In this document: positions 30,243 to 46,716 of the stretch, piece by piece
How positions within the stretch are numbered: the stretch's first letter is position 1
How the letters are laid out: each line of letters opens with the position of its first letter
Source: Syntrophomonadaceae bacterium
GTDB lineage: Bacteria > Bacillota > Dethiobacteria > DTU022 > UBA8154
Direction of reading: 5' to 3'
DNA: 46,716 nucleotides
Assembly: GCA_007131175.1 (NCBI GenBank)
Contig: SLRC01000002.1
Location: forward strand, 1 to 46,716
Made by a program: the position numbers and the translations under genes
The notes under the pieces: generated by a model
What the model was told of the DNA's origin: nothing
Databases searched by the model: none
Seen by the model: the letters and a program-made list of their open reading frames with translations, nothing else

Positions 30243-30536
30243 ATGAAGGTTAACAAAAAGGAAGTAGAACATGTGGCAGCACTGGCCCGCCTTACTTTTT
30301 CCCCAGAAGAATTGGAACTTTACACTGAACAATTCAATGATATACTGGAGTATATCAACAGGCTAAATGAGGTGGATTTGGAAAATGTTGAACCGACAAG
30401 CCACGTTCAGCCCTTGAAAAATGTGCTACGGGAAGATTGTGTCGTGACCAGTGATGAGGAGCTCCGCCAGTCTGTCTTACAGGAAGCGCCTGAAGTGGAA
30501 CATGGGTTTTTCAAGGTTCCAACAATAATTGACTGA
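30243..30536 (+). CDS. gatC: Asp-tRNA(Asn)/Glu-tRNA(Gln) amidotransferase subunit C (canonical set)
   Basis: VNKKEVEHVAALARLTFSPEELELYTEQFNDILEYINRLNEVD...FFKVPTIID. Confidence 0.95.
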   Translation: MKVNKKEVEHVAALARLTFSPEELELYTEQFNDILEYINRLNEVDLENVEPTSHVQPLKNVLREDCVVTSDEELRQSVLQEAPEVEHGFFKVPTIID

Positions 30537-30601
30537 AGTATTAAGAAATGCTGATTTTAGAATCTGCGATTGTGAATGAAGGGAAGATCGGGGGAATATA
30601 T

Positions 30602-32080
30602 TTGAAACTTTACGAGATGACAGCTTATGAAGCGGCACAGTGCCTTAAGCGCGGCGAAATTAGCTCACAACAGCTTGTTAAGGCTGTTTATGAGAGGATT
30701 AACAGTGTGGAGCCCGTAATTGGCGGATATATTACGGTACTGGACCAGGAGAGGGTCCTTGCTGAGGCCCACCGAGCAGATGAACTTTTGCAAAAAGGGC
30801 AGGCCCATTCACCCCTTGCGGGCATCCCCATGGCTTTAAAAGATAATATTTGCACCAATGGTATCCCCACCACCTGTGCATCCCGTATCCTTTCAGGTTA
30901 CTGTCCTCCGTACGATGCGTTTGTAACGGCAAGGCTGAAAGATGCTGGGGCAATCCTCATGGGGAAAACTAATATGGATGAATTTGCCATGGGTTCCTCC
31001 ACAGAAAATTCCGCCTTTCACACCACGGTAAACCCATGGGACAGGGATAGGGTTCCGGGGGGATCAAGCGGAGGTTCGGCTGCAGTGGTTGCAGCGGGAG
31101 AAGCATTTTTTGCCCTGGGCTCGGATACAGGCGGTTCGATTCGCCAGCCCGCTTCCCTTTGTGGTGTGGTTGGCCTTAAACCAACTTACGGAAATGTTTC
31201 CCGCTATGGGCTAATAGCTTTTGCTTCATCGCTGGACCAAATTGGTCCCTTAACCAGGGATGTACGGGATGCTGCATTCGTCCTCGATATTATTGCCGGT
31301 CATGATAAGCAGGATTCCACCTCTGTCCCCGGGAAAAAGGAGCACTACGTCAGTTTTCTGGGCAAAGAAGTGAGAGGGATGAAAGTTGCATTACCCATGG
31401 AATGTTTCGGGGAAGGGCTTAAAAATGAAATTAAGGATGTGGTTATGCAGGCCGTGGAAAAGTGTGCTACAGTGGGAGTTCATTTTTCCGAGGCATCTGC
31501 GCCCAGTACCAAGTATGCTTTACCTGCATACTACCTGGTGGCTCCCGCTGAGGCATCTTCAAATCTGGCCCGTTATGACGGGGTCCAGTATGGATTAAGC
31601 GTCCGCGATGCAGAGAACCTCCTTGCTCTGTACTGGTCAACGCGAAAACAGGGTTTTGGCCCTGAGGTAAAAAGGAGGATCATGCTGGGAACTTACGCCC
31701 TTAGCTCCGGTTATTATGACGCTTATTATTTGAAAGCACTGAAAATGCGCACACTGATCCGGGAAGAATTCGCTAAAATATTCAAGGACCATGATTTTAT
31801 CGTTACTCCCACTTCGCCAACGGTGGCTTTTAAAATAGGGGAACAGAAGGATGATCCCCTCACCATGTATTTAAACGACATCTATACCATAACCGCTAAC
31901 CTTTCCGGGCTTCCGGCCATCTCCATTCCTTGCGGCTTTGTTGAAGGAATGCCGGTGGGATTGCAGGTAATTGGCCGGCCATTTGACGAAGGGCGGATGC
32001 TCCAGTTTTGTTATTGCCTGGAGGGTCTCCTTGGAATCAAAGGATGCATGGCGACTATTAATGTAAAGGAGGGAAAATAG
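30602..32080 (+). CDS. gatA: Asp-tRNA(Asn)/Glu-tRNA(Gln) amidotransferase subunit A (canonical set, catalytic residues present)
   Basis: GIPMALKDNI, VPGGSSGGSAAVVAAGEAFFALGSDTGGSIRQPAS, DIYTITANLSGLPAIS. Confidence 0.97.
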   Translation: MKLYEMTAYEAAQCLKRGEISSQQLVKAVYERINSVEPVIGGYITVLDQERVLAEAHRADELLQKGQAHSPLAGIPMALKDNICTNGIPTTCASRILSGYCPPYDAFVTARLKDAGAILMGKTNMDEFAMGSSTENSAFHTTVNPWDRDRVPGGSSGGSAAVVAAGEAFFALGSDTGGSIRQPASLCGVVGLKPTYGNVSRYGLIAFASSLDQIGPLTRDVRDAAFVLDIIAGHDKQDSTSVPGKKEHYVSFLGKEVRGMKVALPMECFGEGLKNEIKDVVMQAVEKCATVGVHFSEASAPSTKYALPAYYLVAPAEASSNLARYDGVQYGLSVRDAENLLALYWSTRKQGFGPEVKRRIMLGTYALSSGYYDAYYLKALKMRTLIREEFAKIFKDHDFIVTPTSPTVAFKIGEQKDDPLTMYLNDIYTITANLSGLPAISIPCGFVEGMPVGLQVIGRPFDEGRMLQFCYCLEGLLGIKGCMATINVKEGK

Positions 32081-33519
32081 TGCCAGGTGCATATGAAGTC
32101 GTAATTGGTTTGGAAGTACACGTGGAATTACATACGGCCAGCAAAATATTCTGCTCCTGTCCCAACAGGTTCGGCAGTGTGCCCAATACGAACATTTGCC
32201 CCGTTTGCCTCGGGCTGCCCGGCACCCTGCCCGTATTTAACAAAAAAGCACTGGAATTGTCGCTGCGGGCTGCCCTTGCCCTAAATTGCAAAGTCAATTC
32301 TTTTAGTCGTTTTGCCCGTAAGAATTATTTCTACCCCGATCTGCCCAAAGCTTACCAGATTTCCCAGTATGAATATCCCCTAGGGGGGATTGGATCCCTT
32401 GATATTTTCAAAGACGGTGAACTGGTGCGCACGGTTACGATTGAGCGTTTACATCTGGAAGAGGATGCGGGCAAGTTACTCCATGATGAAGAGCATGCAT
32501 CATCTTACGTGGATTATAATCGCTGTGGTGTTCCCCTGATTGAAATAGTTACCGCCCCGGATCTCCGGTCTTCAGAAGAAGCACGCCTTTTCCTGGAAAC
32601 CTTGCGACGAACTTTACTCTATACGGAAATATCAGACTGCAAAATGGAAGAAGGAAGCATGCGCTGCGATGCTAATATCTCCCTCAGGCCCAAGGGATCG
32701 GAAGTTTTAGGACAAAAAGTAGAAATAAAAAACATGAATTCTTTCAAAGCCGTACAACGGGGACTGGAACATGAAGTAATGCGGCAAACAAAAATCCTGG
32801 ATAAAGGTGGACGTATTTCCCAGGAGACACGGCGCTGGCACGAGGATAAAGGTGTGACCAGCGAGATGCGCAGCAAGGAAAAAGAGCAGGACTACCGCTA
32901 CTTCCCCGAGCCCGATCTTCCACCCATAGTTGTGGATGATACAATGCTAAAAAAAATCAGGGCTGCTCTACCTGAATTGCCCGTAACTCGCTATCGGCGA
33001 TTAATGAACAATTATGGCCTTTCGGCTTACCAGGCGGAAATAATCACGTCCGAGCAAAGCCTTGCTGATTTTTTTGAAGAGACATTACAAAACTACACTC
33101 AACCCCAAAAAGTGGCCAACTGGTTACTTGGAGATGTATTAAAAATAATCAATGTGGTGGCAAAAGAGATCAATAAAACCCTTTTTACCCCCGCCCACTT
33201 GGCGGAGCTCCTTGATCTGGTTGACGAAGGTCAGATTAGCGGACCCACAGCCAAAGAGATCCTTGAAGATTGTTTTAAAAATGGCAAAATGCCTGCAGTT
33301 ATTATGGTGGAAAAAGGGTTGGGACAAATCAGCGATACTGAAGAACTGGAGCGGGTCGTGGCTAAGGTCCTGGAAGAAAACAAGGCGGCTGTACAGGATT
33401 ATGAGGGAGGAAACAAAAAAGTTATCGCTTTTTTGATGGGTAACGTAATGAAGATTACTGGCGGTAAGGCCAACCCCCAAATGGTCACTGCCCTGCTAAA
33501 GAAAAAATTGGACAAATAA
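32080..33519 (+). CDS. gatB: Asp-tRNA(Asn)/Glu-tRNA(Gln) amidotransferase subunit B (canonical set)
   Basis: YEVVIGLEVHVELHTASKIFCSC...CPVCLGLPGTLP, KNYFYPDLPKAYQISQ, LHLEEDAGKL, NRCGVPLIEIV. Confidence 0.97.
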   Translation: MPGAYEVVIGLEVHVELHTASKIFCSCPNRFGSVPNTNICPVCLGLPGTLPVFNKKALELSLRAALALNCKVNSFSRFARKNYFYPDLPKAYQISQYEYPLGGIGSLDIFKDGELVRTVTIERLHLEEDAGKLLHDEEHASSYVDYNRCGVPLIEIVTAPDLRSSEEARLFLETLRRTLLYTEISDCKMEEGSMRCDANISLRPKGSEVLGQKVEIKNMNSFKAVQRGLEHEVMRQTKILDKGGRISQETRRWHEDKGVTSEMRSKEKEQDYRYFPEPDLPPIVVDDTMLKKIRAALPELPVTRYRRLMNNYGLSAYQAEIITSEQSLADFFEETLQNYTQPQKVANWLLGDVLKIINVVAKEINKTLFTPAHLAELLDLVDEGQISGPTAKEILEDCFKNGKMPAVIMVEKGLGQISDTEELERVVAKVLEENKAAVQDYEGGNKKVIAFLMGNVMKITGGKANPQMVTALLKKKLDK

Positions 33520-40246: not shown

Positions 40247-41011
40247 ATGTTTAACGGAAAAGTGGTGCGTAAAGTGCGGGAAGAGAAAGGCTATTCGCTG
40301 GCCGAACTGGCAGAGAGGGCGGGTATTTCTGTCTCCTACTTGAGCGAAATTGAGCGGGGCAGTAAAAAGCCTTCTCTCAAAACTATGAACAAACTTTCCT
40401 CTTCCCTCAATATGGCGGGGCGGGAATTTTTACAAGACTCCGCTGACGAAAGTTTCGCTTTGGGGGCGCGTATCCGCCTTTTAAGGGAAGAACGGGGTAT
40501 GAGCCTTCAGGATTTGGCTACTGCCACCGGTTTTTCTTACTCCTATATCTGTGAAATTGAGCGGGGATTGGTGGAACCTTCATTAAGAGCACTGCGTAAA
40601 GCGTCTGAGGCCCTTAATGTCCCCATCAATCGCATCAAGACGCCCGACAGTTCGCTGGGCGGCAAAATTGCCCGGGTAAGGGAAGAGTTAGGTTTAAAAC
40701 AGGCCCAGTTGGCCAAAAAGGCCGGCGTGTCCCCGGGGATGATCGGCCAGCTGGAACAGGGAAAGGTACAACCCTCCCTGCAGACAGTGGAAAAGATTGC
40801 CTCTGCCTTCGGCATTTCTACCTGTTATTTTATTGCCGGGGAGGATGGGATGGAGGATTTTCTCCACCTCCTGACCCCTGAACTGCGCAATTTACTCCTG
40901 GAGCCCAAGGTGCAGGGAGTTCTGCGTGCACTTTGTCATTGCAATGAGAAAGAATTTCGCTTTATCCTGGAATTTATCAGGATGTTTAAAGAAGCACGCC
41001 TCAGTGAATAA
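40247..41011 (+). CDS. Transcriptional regulator with three tandem XRE-type HTH domains
   Basis: Three repeats: VVRKVREEKGYSLAELAERAGISVSYLSEIERGSKKPSL; RIRLLREERGMSLQDLATATGFSYSYICEIERGLVEPSL; KIARVREELGLKQAQLAKKAGVSPGMIGQLEQGKVQPSL. Confidence 0.93.
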   Translation: MFNGKVVRKVREEKGYSLAELAERAGISVSYLSEIERGSKKPSLKTMNKLSSSLNMAGREFLQDSADESFALGARIRLLREERGMSLQDLATATGFSYSYICEIERGLVEPSLRALRKASEALNVPINRIKTPDSSLGGKIARVREELGLKQAQLAKKAGVSPGMIGQLEQGKVQPSLQTVEKIASAFGISTCYFIAGEDGMEDFLHLLTPELRNLLLEPKVQGVLRALCHCNEKEFRFILEFIRMFKEARLSE

Positions 41012-43211: not shown

Positions 43212-43508
43212 GTGATCAAGCTGGAAAGCATTAAAGAAGACATTAAAAAGGCTGCCTTGGATGCCCGTATAAACCTGGCGCCTGTAGAAGAAACCTCACT
43301 GGAAAATCAACTGAAAGACCTCCTTAAGCAGGCTGCATTTCTCAGGGAACAGGAACTGGATATGGTCGAACCAACATTTTTCCCCCACAATCAGCAAAAC
43401 ACCCTGCGGGAAGACAATGTTTTACCTTCCATGCCCCTGGATAATGCGCTGGAAAATGCTCCTGAAGCTGATGACACTTTTTTCCTTGTTCCTAAAATCG
43501 TTGAATAA
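43212..43508 (+). CDS. GatC paralog (second set)
   Basis: LKDLLKQAAFLREQELDMVEPTFFPHNQQNTLREDNVLPSMPLDNALENAPEADDTFFLVPKIVE: GatC-like C-terminal half. Confidence 0.85.
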   Translation: MIKLESIKEDIKKAALDARINLAPVEETSLENQLKDLLKQAAFLREQELDMVEPTFFPHNQQNTLREDNVLPSMPLDNALENAPEADDTFFLVPKIVE

Positions 43509-43534
43509 ACAGTCACCAAAAAGGAGGTCTGGCT

Positions 43535-44824
43535 TTGGATATAAATAAAATGAAATCGTTAAATGCATTTATCTCCTTTAATCCAGCTGTAACAAGCGGC
43601 AAGCAGATAGGGCAGGCATCTGTTAAAACAGCAGCATTAGACGGGACTTCTTTTGCCCTTGCCGACAATATCTGCACTACCACATTGAAAACCACCTGTG
43701 CTTCCCGCACACTCGAAGCTTACCAACCCGCCTTCGGCAGCATTGCCGGTCAAAAGCTGGAGGACAAAGGAGCACTGCTGGTGGGCAAAACAAATATGGA
43801 CGAGTTTGGCATGGGTACGTGGGGGCAGAGCTCATACTTCGGAGCTGTAAAAAACCCTTGGAATGAAAAGCACACAGCCGGCAGCGGTGCGGCTGCAGCT
43901 GTGGCCTGTGGTGCGGTTACCCTGGCCCTGGCCGCGGATCGTCTAGGCGAAGTGAGACAGGCTGCCGCTTATTGCGGCGTGATCGGTCTCAAACCAACTT
44001 ATGGGCGGGTGTCCCGCAGCGGTCTTATCGACTGTGCTCCTTCCCTGGAGCAGCTGGGTATTATTGCCAAAGACAGCGCGAGCCTTGCTGCCGCACTTGA
44101 AACAATCAGTGGCCACGACCCTAAGGATACCACATCCTTTAAAACTGAAGTCCCCCCATACGTCAATCTTTCACAGGAAAAGCTTAACAGTGTCAAGGTG
44201 GCCGTCCCTGAAGAATGGAAGGCTTTTGCAGATGTGGCAGGGCTCAATAAAACAATCTTCCAGGTGAAAACAGTTTCCCTGCAATTCTTTAAGCATGCCC
44301 TCGTTACAGCTTATATTATCGCCGCCGTAGAGGCATTTTCCAGCATGTCCAACTTTGACGGCGTTCGTTTTGGCCTCAGGGGGGAAGGGAAACATCTTCA
44401 GGAGATGTACAGGCTCACACGCACAAAAGGTTTCAGCAGTCTCGTTAAAGAGTTTCTCACTTTTGGTGCCCTCATTTCCTACGGAAAATATTACAAAGAT
44501 TATTTTCTCAGGGCGCAAAAAATGCGTTCCATAATTAAAAAAGAACTGGAGGACTGCCTGCAACAATATGACCTGCTGCTGGTCCCCGCCGTGCCCTTCA
44601 ATGCACCGTCCTTGGAGAACGGCGTGACGGGGAGCAAACTGCCCGATAACGCCGCTTATTATTCAGCAGCAGCAAACCTTTCCGGTTTGCCTGCGATTAC
44701 CTGTCCCTTACCGGGATACGGCGCAGCAGAAGGCTTACCTGCTGCAGGATTGCAGCTCATGGCCAAAGCCTGGAACGAAACACTGCTCCTGCAGACAGTC
44801 CGCTTCCTTGAAAAGGAACAATAA
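43535..44824 (+). CDS. GatA paralog with degenerate amidase active site
   Basis: TTG start, RBS aaggagg. Homologous to GatA throughout (DNICTTTLKTTCASRTLEAY, GKTNMDEFGMG, CGVIGLKPTYGRVSRSGLIDCAPSLEQLG, AANLSGLPAIT) but FALADNI, HTAGSGAAAAVA and AADRLGEVRQAAA replace the catalytic motifs. Confidence 0.92.
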   Translation: MDINKMKSLNAFISFNPAVTSGKQIGQASVKTAALDGTSFALADNICTTTLKTTCASRTLEAYQPAFGSIAGQKLEDKGALLVGKTNMDEFGMGTWGQSSYFGAVKNPWNEKHTAGSGAAAAVACGAVTLALAADRLGEVRQAAAYCGVIGLKPTYGRVSRSGLIDCAPSLEQLGIIAKDSASLAAALETISGHDPKDTTSFKTEVPPYVNLSQEKLNSVKVAVPEEWKAFADVAGLNKTIFQVKTVSLQFFKHALVTAYIIAAVEAFSSMSNFDGVRFGLRGEGKHLQEMYRLTRTKGFSSLVKEFLTFGALISYGKYYKDYFLRAQKMRSIIKKELEDCLQQYDLLLVPAVPFNAPSLENGVTGSKLPDNAAYYSAAANLSGLPAITCPLPGYGAAEGLPAAGLQLMAKAWNETLLLQTVRFLEKEQ

Positions 44825-44912: not shown

Positions 44913-46358
44913 TTGCCCGAGTTTGAAACAGTCATTGGCCTGGAAGTCCATGTTGAACTTTTAACAGATACAAAACTTTTCTGTGGTTGCAGCACCGCCT
45001 TCGGCGCTGAACCCAACACCCAGGTTTGCCCCGTATGTTTGGGCCAGCCTGGCGGAACCCTGCCCCTGCTCAATAAAAGGGCTGCAGAGTATACAATCAA
45101 AGCCGCACTCGGTCTGAACTGCAATATCGTTCCAATAATTTCTTTTGACCGTAAAAATTACTTTTACGCAGACTTGCCAAAGGGATTTCAAATCTCCCAG
45201 TACTTTTACCCTATGGGTAAGGAAGGCTTTCTCAATATCCGCCTCAACGGCGAAACCAAAAAAATTGGTATACACCAGCTCCACCTGGAAGAAGATACGG
45301 GCAAGCTTTCACATATTGGAGACATCATTTCCTCACCTTATAGCCGCGTCGACTTTAACCGGGCAGGGGTGCCCCTGATGGAGATCGTGTCAGAGCCCGA
45401 CTTGCGCTCGGCAGAGGAGGCAAGGCTTTACCTGCAAAAACTCCGTTCCATCATTTGCTACCTGGGTATCTCCGACTGCAAAATGGAGGAAGGCTCCATG
45501 CGCTGCGACGCCAATATCAGTATTAGGCCTGTGGGCAGTACCAAACTGGAAAACAAAACAGAACTGAAAAACATGAACTCGTTCCGTTCCGTATACCGGG
45601 GCATCGAATACGAAGCGGAAAGGCAGCGTACAATTGTTCTATCCGGAGATACCGTTATCCCCGAAACAAGACACTGGGACGAAGCCAAAGGCATTACCAG
45701 GGCCATGCGCAGCAAGTTTGTCTCCGCAGACTACCGCTGCTTCCCCGACCCTAACATCCCACCTTACCCTACAAAAAACACATGGGTAAACGAGATAAAA
45801 GAAACAATCCCCGAGTTGCCAGATGCCCGTTTCAATCGCTTCGTGGAAACATATGGCTTGCCGCCCTATGATGCTGAAGTGCTTACTGCATCCAAAGAGC
45901 TTGCTGATTTCTATGACGGCGTGATTGGCTACTGTCATGAGCCCAAAATGGCCAGTAACTGGATCATGAGCGAGCTCATGGGACTGCTCAATTCCTCTGG
46001 TATTGAGATCACAGCATCTAAAATAACACCTCAGAGTTTGGGCAAGCTGCTTGAGTTCATCAGCAAAGGGGAAATCAGCGGCAAGATGGCCAAAGCGGTG
46101 TTCGAAGAAATGTTTAACACGGGTGAGGATCCGGCTCGCATTGTTGAGAAAAAGGGCCTATCCCAGATATCAGATGCAGATACACTGCATCAAATTGTGA
46201 GCAAGGTGCTGGCAGAAAACCCGAAATCTGTGGAAGATTTTCATGGTGGTAAGAAAAAGGCACTTGGCTTCCTGGTGGGACAGATCATGAAAGAAACCAA
46301 AGGGCAGGCTAATCCCCAACTGGTAAACGAACTGCTTACAGAAAAACTCAAAGCTTAG
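44913..46358 (+). CDS. GatB paralog (second set), motifs intact
   Basis: FETVIGLEVHVELLTDTKLFCGC...CPVCLGQPGGTLP, DRKNYFYADLPKGFQISQ, LHLEEDTGKL, NRAGVPLMEIVSEPD, MEEGSMRCDANIS. Confidence 0.95.
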   Translation: MPEFETVIGLEVHVELLTDTKLFCGCSTAFGAEPNTQVCPVCLGQPGGTLPLLNKRAAEYTIKAALGLNCNIVPIISFDRKNYFYADLPKGFQISQYFYPMGKEGFLNIRLNGETKKIGIHQLHLEEDTGKLSHIGDIISSPYSRVDFNRAGVPLMEIVSEPDLRSAEEARLYLQKLRSIICYLGISDCKMEEGSMRCDANISIRPVGSTKLENKTELKNMNSFRSVYRGIEYEAERQRTIVLSGDTVIPETRHWDEAKGITRAMRSKFVSADYRCFPDPNIPPYPTKNTWVNEIKETIPELPDARFNRFVETYGLPPYDAEVLTASKELADFYDGVIGYCHEPKMASNWIMSELMGLLNSSGIEITASKITPQSLGKLLEFISKGEISGKMAKAVFEEMFNTGEDPARIVEKKGLSQISDADTLHQIVSKVLAENPKSVEDFHGGKKKALGFLVGQIMKETKGQANPQLVNELLTEKLKA

Positions 46359-46475: not shown

Positions 46476-46553
46476 GGAGCCGTGGTGTAGTCAGGTTAAC
46501 ATGCCGGCCTGTCAAGCCGGAGATCGCGGGTTCAACTCCCGTCGGCTCCGCCA
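46476..46553 (+). tRNA. tRNA-Asp (anticodon GTC), CCA encoded
   Basis: GGAGCCG acceptor pairs with CGGCTCC; anticodon loop CTGTCAA; GGTTCAACT T-arm; CCA. Confidence 0.95.
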
Positions 46554-46559
46554 TATTAT

Positions 46560-46635
<76 letters not shown>

Positions 46636-46641
46636 ACACTT

Positions 46642-46716
46642 GCGGAAGTAGCTCAGCGGTAGAGCATCGCCTTGCCAAGGCGAGGGTCGCGGGTTCAATT
46701 CCCGTCTTCCGCTCCA
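46642..46716 (+). tRNA. tRNA-Gly (anticodon GCC), CCA encoded at window end
   Basis: GCGGAAG/CTTCCGC acceptor; anticodon loop TTGCCAA; GGTTCAATTCC T-arm; TCCA. Confidence 0.95.

Follow-up and report, generated by a model that had tools for sequence, protein, structure and literature searches.

A second GatA that lacks the glutaminase triad, conserved in a GatCAB-like operon and probably fed by free ammonia

GatCAB is a textbook pair of coupled active sites that are linked by an ammonia channel. The residues of the glutaminase site have been named for yeast GatA (S154, cis-S130, K52, D418 and R334; PMC4027206), and the roles that we give to residues of GatA2 below were assigned from these. Yeast GatFAB also accepts NH4Cl for transamidation; when the GatF N-terminal domain is truncated, its glutaminase activity falls and the NH4Cl-driven activity rises (PMC4027206). 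An alternative between glutamine and ammonia is known from NAD synthetase, which exists in glutamine- and ammonia-dependent forms and whose glutaminase-less form uses NH3 in vivo (PMC3376133). Here we compare with these systems a second gatCAB operon in a stretch of 46,716 nucleotides from a Syntrophomonadaceae bacterium (contig SLRC01000002.1; hereafter the window). A search of the literature, limited to open-licence papers, revealed no prior report of a glutaminase-dead GatCAB.

The window carries two sets of gat genes, all on the forward strand. The canonical set, which served for comparison, occupies 30243-33519 and consists of gatC1 (30243..30536), gatA1 (30602..32080, with K80, S156 and S179 intact) and gatB1 (32080..33519). 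In the second, separate set, gatA2 (43535..44824, 429 aa, TTG start) is flanked by gatC2 (43212..43508, 98 aa), which encodes the GatC subunit of the second complex, and by gatB2 (44913..46358, 481 aa), which encodes the kinase/transamidase subunit. The products of gatC2 (TIGR00135, 60.1 bits, cut-off 47.1) and gatB2 (TIGR00133, 588 bits, above 314.8) passed their family cut-offs. GatA2 matched Pfam Amidase with 271 bits but failed the cut-off of the GatA equivalog TIGR00132 (362 bits against the required 481.1), which GatA1 passed with 632.5 bits. A preliminary description of this DNA had noted that the gatA2 reading frame is intact and has a good ribosome binding site; indeed AAAGGAGG was read directly at 43520..43527, and a comparable AAGGAGG lies 5' of gatA2 in relatives. 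The arrangement of gatC, gatA and gatB in one operon was met both in the window and in the neighbourhoods of orthologs, with gatC2 next to gatA2 in all orthologs checked, while the genes that flank gatC2-gatA2-gatB2 varied from genus to genus in the neighbourhoods read.

Several other features of these neighbourhoods were observed. Immediately 3' of gatB2 the window contains a cluster of tRNA-Asp, tRNA-Phe and tRNA-Gly (46476-46716), and at 40247-41011 it encodes a protein of 254 aa, kept across the genus, in which three HTH_3 (Cro/C1-type) domains follow one another in tandem. In genome G093 (L162:609-14310), and also in L163 and L164, gatC2A2B2 lies within an arginine operon; the order in G093 is argJ-argB-argD-carB-gatC2A2B2-argF-argG-argH, and carA, the gene of a glutaminase subunit, is not present between argD and carB. 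This layout rests on full annotation for G093 only and on gene sizes for L163 and L164. Finally, codY is found near gatCAB2 in two genomes, G010 (L154:10218-11030) and G016 (L157:6654-7436), in both of which no other GatCAB was detected (see below), and this proximity is a possible link to nutrient regulation.

We then compared the active site of GatA2 with that of GatA1 (39% identity in the alignment) and with the other members of clade P, which comprises 24 GatA2 proteins, each from a different genome of the window's class (SH-aLRT 100). The catalytic Lys (K80 of GatA1) is replaced by Ala43 (43661..43663), and Lys was present in none of the 24 orthologs. The nucleophile Ser (S179 of GatA1) aligns with Glu139 (43949..43951). 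Of the glutamine-binding residues, Arg359 of GatA1 became Phe307, with Arg kept in 0/24 orthologs, and Asp426 is absent, with N372 nearby and the Asp426 column kept in 17% of orthologs. The first two of these changes had been read in the same way in the preliminary description, in which the glutamine-binding Arg and Asp also looked changed and the cis-Ser had been taken for a Gly. The cis-Ser is indeed lost, but by a 3-residue deletion and not by a simple substitution: the G-S-S of PGGSSGGSAA is gone and AG-SGAAAA is left (T-A-G-S-G at the deletion site, 43874..43888). The cis-Ser loop is deleted in this way in 24/24 orthologs as well as in a second clade, and the Ser that is left varies among orthologs (S, N, K or C). 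Thus all three triad residues (Lys, cis-Ser and nucleophile Ser) are missing in every member of clade P. By comparison, the Lys, both loop Ser, the nucleophile Ser, the Arg and the Asp were present in 81/81 canonical GatAs (80 from many phyla and GatA1 of the window), the triad was retained in the 27 canonical GatA matches that were checked in a sample of 398 genomes of the phylum, and the triad and glutamine-binding columns were at least 98% invariant over 117 canonical GatAs. As the same positions are nearly invariant in canonical GatAs and absent in 24/24 GatA2 proteins, the changes are not due to chance. A scan of genome contigs gave only canonical GatAs, from other groups, and no GatA2 ortholog.

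Orthologs with intact triads, or triad residues elsewhere in the protein, would have refuted a lost glutaminase site; no such ortholog was met, and no relocated triad was found in the GatA2 fold by pairwise, multiple or fold alignment. The residues that took the place of the triad were less uniform than its absence. Glu139 was found in 17/17 orthologs of the window's order, but in seven orthologs of other families Gly, Asn or Ala stood at the nucleophile position. Conservation therefore holds for the absence of the triad and only within the order for Glu, so that the triad loss is more widely shared than the Glu, and Glu139 as a clade-wide new catalytic residue was ruled out. Two other residues became invariant: Asn273 (44351..44353; Asn in 24/24 GatA2 proteins) at the position of canonical Arg324 (Arg in 116/117) and Ser315 (44477..44479; Ser in 24/24) at that of canonical Leu367 (Leu in 117/117). 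Moreover, Phe replaces canonical Ser319 and Tyr376 in 23/24 GatA2 proteins each. A pocket that is remodelled in this way and not randomised could mean that GatA2 has a different catalytic site, in which new residues hydrolyse glutamine or another amide. We regard this as improbable, because the GatA2 orthologs showed no newly conserved Cys and no other evident candidate for a nucleophile, the Glu is not conserved beyond the order and the glutamine-binding Arg and Asp are lost. As far as sequence comparison can tell, GatCAB2 is a GatCAB-like complex whose GatA2 fails the features that define a GatA, namely the triad, the glutamine-binding residues and the equivalog cut-off.

Is gatA2 a decaying gene? 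The preliminary description had counted about 50 missing N-terminal residues and had nevertheless proposed a selected loss of glutaminase function. The N-terminal deletion is true for the window, where no trace of the missing part was found in the DNA upstream of gatA2, but it is not general: it is shared only by one close relative, G003, and nearly all other orthologs have the full N-terminus. This deletion is what could be held in favour of a pseudogene. The dN/dS of GatA2 was 0.12-0.22 in three pairs of clade P and so not near 1 (the less saturated of the pairs, G007/G015, had a dS of 0.63-0.74), and that of GatB2 was 0.04-0.07. With the open frames of the 24 orthologs, the conserved operon and the new invariant residues, these values, a sign of purifying selection, support a glutaminase loss that was selected and did not come about by decay; the pseudogene, to which we give almost no credence, was rejected on the 24 conserved orthologs and the dN/dS. 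An AlphaFold model of GatA2 (39 sequences) reached a pLDDT of 89 and a pTM of 0.91, and the solved structure closest to it was A. aeolicus GatA (3h0l_A, TM 0.93). As modelled, GatA2 is thus an intact protein of the GatA/amidase-signature fold.

Next, we asked how far this form of GatA extends. A search of relatives gave 16 GatA2 orthologs at 46-71% identity; the further members of clade P came from profile searches of the order and the class, and one (G075) from among second GatAs. Clade P covers several families, its members are 43-71% identical, and the open frame and the C2-A2-B2 operon are kept in all of them. No member was found outside the class at E 1e-140 in the 398-genome phylum sample. 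A second clade, Q, consists of 17 second GatAs in families f3 and f5 (SH-aLRT 100). Clade Q has the same 3-residue loop deletion, but its members mostly retain the Lys and the Arg, and at the nucleophile position they have Ala (12/17), Ser (4) or Gly (1). In the phylum sample the Q profile scored far above the canonical range only in members of the class, and with neither the P nor the Q profile did a non-class member rise above that range, although this search could overlook a form that is rarer or has diverged further. In an unrooted GatA tree P and Q stand together on the side away from canonical GatAs (support 95); the GatB tree left their relation unresolved. A stepwise loss of the glutaminase, with the loop lost first, is suggested by these data but not proven. 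One clade Q GatA, in G027 (L168:1476-2909), is a possible intermediate: of the triad it retains the Lys and the nucleophile Ser, whereas its cis-Ser loop is missing. No other GatCAB-type GatA was found in that genome, in which GlnRS and AsnRS were undetected.

Can cells rely on the second complex alone? In eight genomes (G007, G010, G011, G015, G016, G023, G025 and G097, from six genera and four families) the pseudo-GatA was the only GatA and was accompanied by a single GatB. These genomes are draft MAGs with a completeness of 82-97%. No canonical GatCAB, GlnRS or AsnRS was detected in any of the eight, and in six of them (G007, G010, G011, G015, G016 and G025) the GatA profile matched GatA2 only at E <= 1e-15. 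More broadly, AsnRS was not found in families f1, f2 and f4 or in G095-G097; the same was true of GlnRS with the exception of G013, and in G013 GatA2 was not found. GluRS was single copy wherever it was detected in the class. The ancestral locus ligA-comFB-gatCAB-nth-lon was assembled without gatCAB in five of the eight genomes: G007 and G015 have ligA-comFB-nth, G011 has ligA-comFB followed by fumarase-type genes and nth-lon, and G010 and G016 have ligA-comFB followed by other genes, in each case on assembled contigs. As controls, the window, G001, G009 and G017 carry gatCAB1 after ligA-comFB. Incomplete assembly is therefore an unlikely cause of the missing gatCAB1. In G023 gatCAB1 is also absent beside ligA, but the contig ends soon after, and G025 and G097, where a contig ends at ligA, gave no information on the locus. 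In G011 the gatC2-gatA2-gatB2 operon is split by a contig break, one contig starting with the tail of gatA2, and the single GatB is of the GatB2 type (72.7% versus 48.0%). It appears that the pseudo-GatCAB is the only GatCAB left in about eight relatives.

Within one genus (g8), G020 has the canonical complex only, G017 has both and G011 has only the pseudo form, which suggests that the two complexes are interchangeable. We also observed that gatB1 of G017 (L227:2254-3129) stops near residue 297 of 479, without the C-terminal tRNA-binding part; gatC1 and gatA1 look intact in this genome and GatCAB2 is complete. Many genomes keep both complexes, among them the only single-contig carrier, G093, in which AsnRS is present and GlnRS is absent. 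Carriers with synthetases are G086 and G075 (both GlnRS and AsnRS) and G093 and G094 (AsnRS only). A role of GatCAB2 in serving one tRNA beside GlnRS or AsnRS was considered and is not general, as both synthetases were undetected in most carriers.

The retention of both complexes in many genomes would also be compatible with a GatCAB2 that has no tRNA-amidating activity and instead regulates GatCAB1 or chaperones mischarged tRNA, and catalytically dead paralogs can be allosteric partners, as in deoxyhypusine synthase (PMC3663545). Such a function is very improbable, since the eight genomes without detected GatCAB1, GlnRS and AsnRS would then be left without any known way to make Gln-tRNA(Gln) or Asn-tRNA(Asn), and since the active site of GatB2 is fully conserved. 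The residues that the structural study of GatFAB (PMC4027206) assigns to ATP and Mg are kept in 22/22 GatB2 proteins (E34, H36, E156, E186, N230 and S232; T189 as Ser or Thr), and 50 of the 55 columns that are invariant in canonical GatBs are kept in all GatB2 proteins, so that the active site is, from its predicted residues, intact. GatB2 departs from canonical invariants (numbering of the window's GatB1) by P86A, by Phe, Leu or Tyr at E267 and by mostly Asn at D279; the effect of these changes is unknown. Glu267 and Asp279 are invariant in 61 canonical GatBs, and E267 is replaced by a hydrophobic residue in both the P and the Q clades.

From the genome content of the eight sole carriers we infer strongly that transamidation is needed of GatCAB2. 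If these cells make Gln-tRNA(Gln) and Asn-tRNA(Asn), GatCAB2 must do it, and the ammonia for GatB2 does not come from glutamine hydrolysis by GatA2. Where, then, would it come from? Because yeast GatFAB works with NH4Cl and NAD synthetase offers the precedent of a glutamine/ammonia alternative, free ammonium may be the simplest nitrogen source for GatB2, an inference that is untested. Another possibility is that GatCAB2 transamidates with ammonia from a separate glutaminase or asparaginase docked on or near GatA2, so that glutamine remains the true donor. A glutaminase partner is usual for amidotransferases, and a docking or pocket site could be built from surface or pocket residues of GatA2 that are newly invariant (N273, S315, F268 and F324). 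On the other hand, no glutaminase-type gene stood beside gatCAB2 among the flanking genes tested, which vary by genus; aside from carB of the G093 arginine operon, amidotransferase genes, whether class-I or of another type, were absent from them too, and no other close amidase-signature protein was evident in G007, G010, G011, G015, G016 and G025. We consider a glutaminase in trans unlikely but cannot exclude it, as the sole-carrier genomes were read only in part.

Our preferred reading, which we hold to be probable, is that GatCAB2 functions as a transamidase on Glu-tRNA(Gln) and Asp-tRNA(Asn) and takes its nitrogen from free ammonia; both activity and donor are inferred, without biochemistry. 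GatA2 would have given up glutamine hydrolysis and would remain as a scaffold that also forms one side of the ammonia path. At the expense of ATP, GatB2 would phosphorylate Glu-tRNA(Gln) and Asp-tRNA(Asn); free cytoplasmic NH3, and not NH3 that GatA releases from glutamine, would then attack the acyl phosphate. Where a genome has both complexes, ammonia would feed GatCAB2 and glutamine GatCAB1; where GatCAB1 has been lost, cells would obtain Gln-tRNA(Gln) and Asn-tRNA(Asn) from GatCAB2 alone. More tentatively, and with less conviction than for the transamidase itself, we propose that Gln- and Asn-tRNA synthesis is uncoupled from glutamine in this lineage of anaerobes, with GatA2 as an ammonia port or sensor that has the N273/S315 pocket and, in several species, as part of the only route. 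If the ammonia-fed reading is true, the coupling through glutaminase and channel is dispensable in vivo, translation is tied directly to the ammonium supply, two tRNAs being charged in direct dependence on the ammonium inside the cell, and a natural system is at hand for the study of the ammonia channel. The automatic label "glutamine-hydrolysing" GatA is wrong for such genes.

How does GatCAB2 compare with known systems? In subunits, gene order, fold and GatB site it is like bacterial GatCAB (S. aureus, A. aeolicus and T. maritima; PDB 2df4, 3h0l and 3al0), from which it differs in a GatA2 that has neither the Lys, cis-Ser and Ser nor the glutamine-binding Arg and Asp and falls below the NCBI GatA equivalog cut-off. 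With the amidase-signature enzymes FAAH, malonamidase E2 and allophanate hydrolase GatA2 shares the fold and scaffold motifs, but these are active hydrolases with a K-S-S triad. NAD synthetase (PMC3376133) resembles the proposed system in its ATP-dependent amidation with and without a glutaminase; there, however, the glutaminase domain is absent, whereas the inactive GatA2 persists as a scaffold and the amidation would take place on an aminoacyl-tRNA. Yeast GatFAB with a truncated GatF N-terminal domain likewise retains or raises NH4Cl-driven transamidation while its glutaminase is reduced (PMC4027206), but that enzyme is a laboratory mutant and GatCAB2 belongs to a natural lineage.
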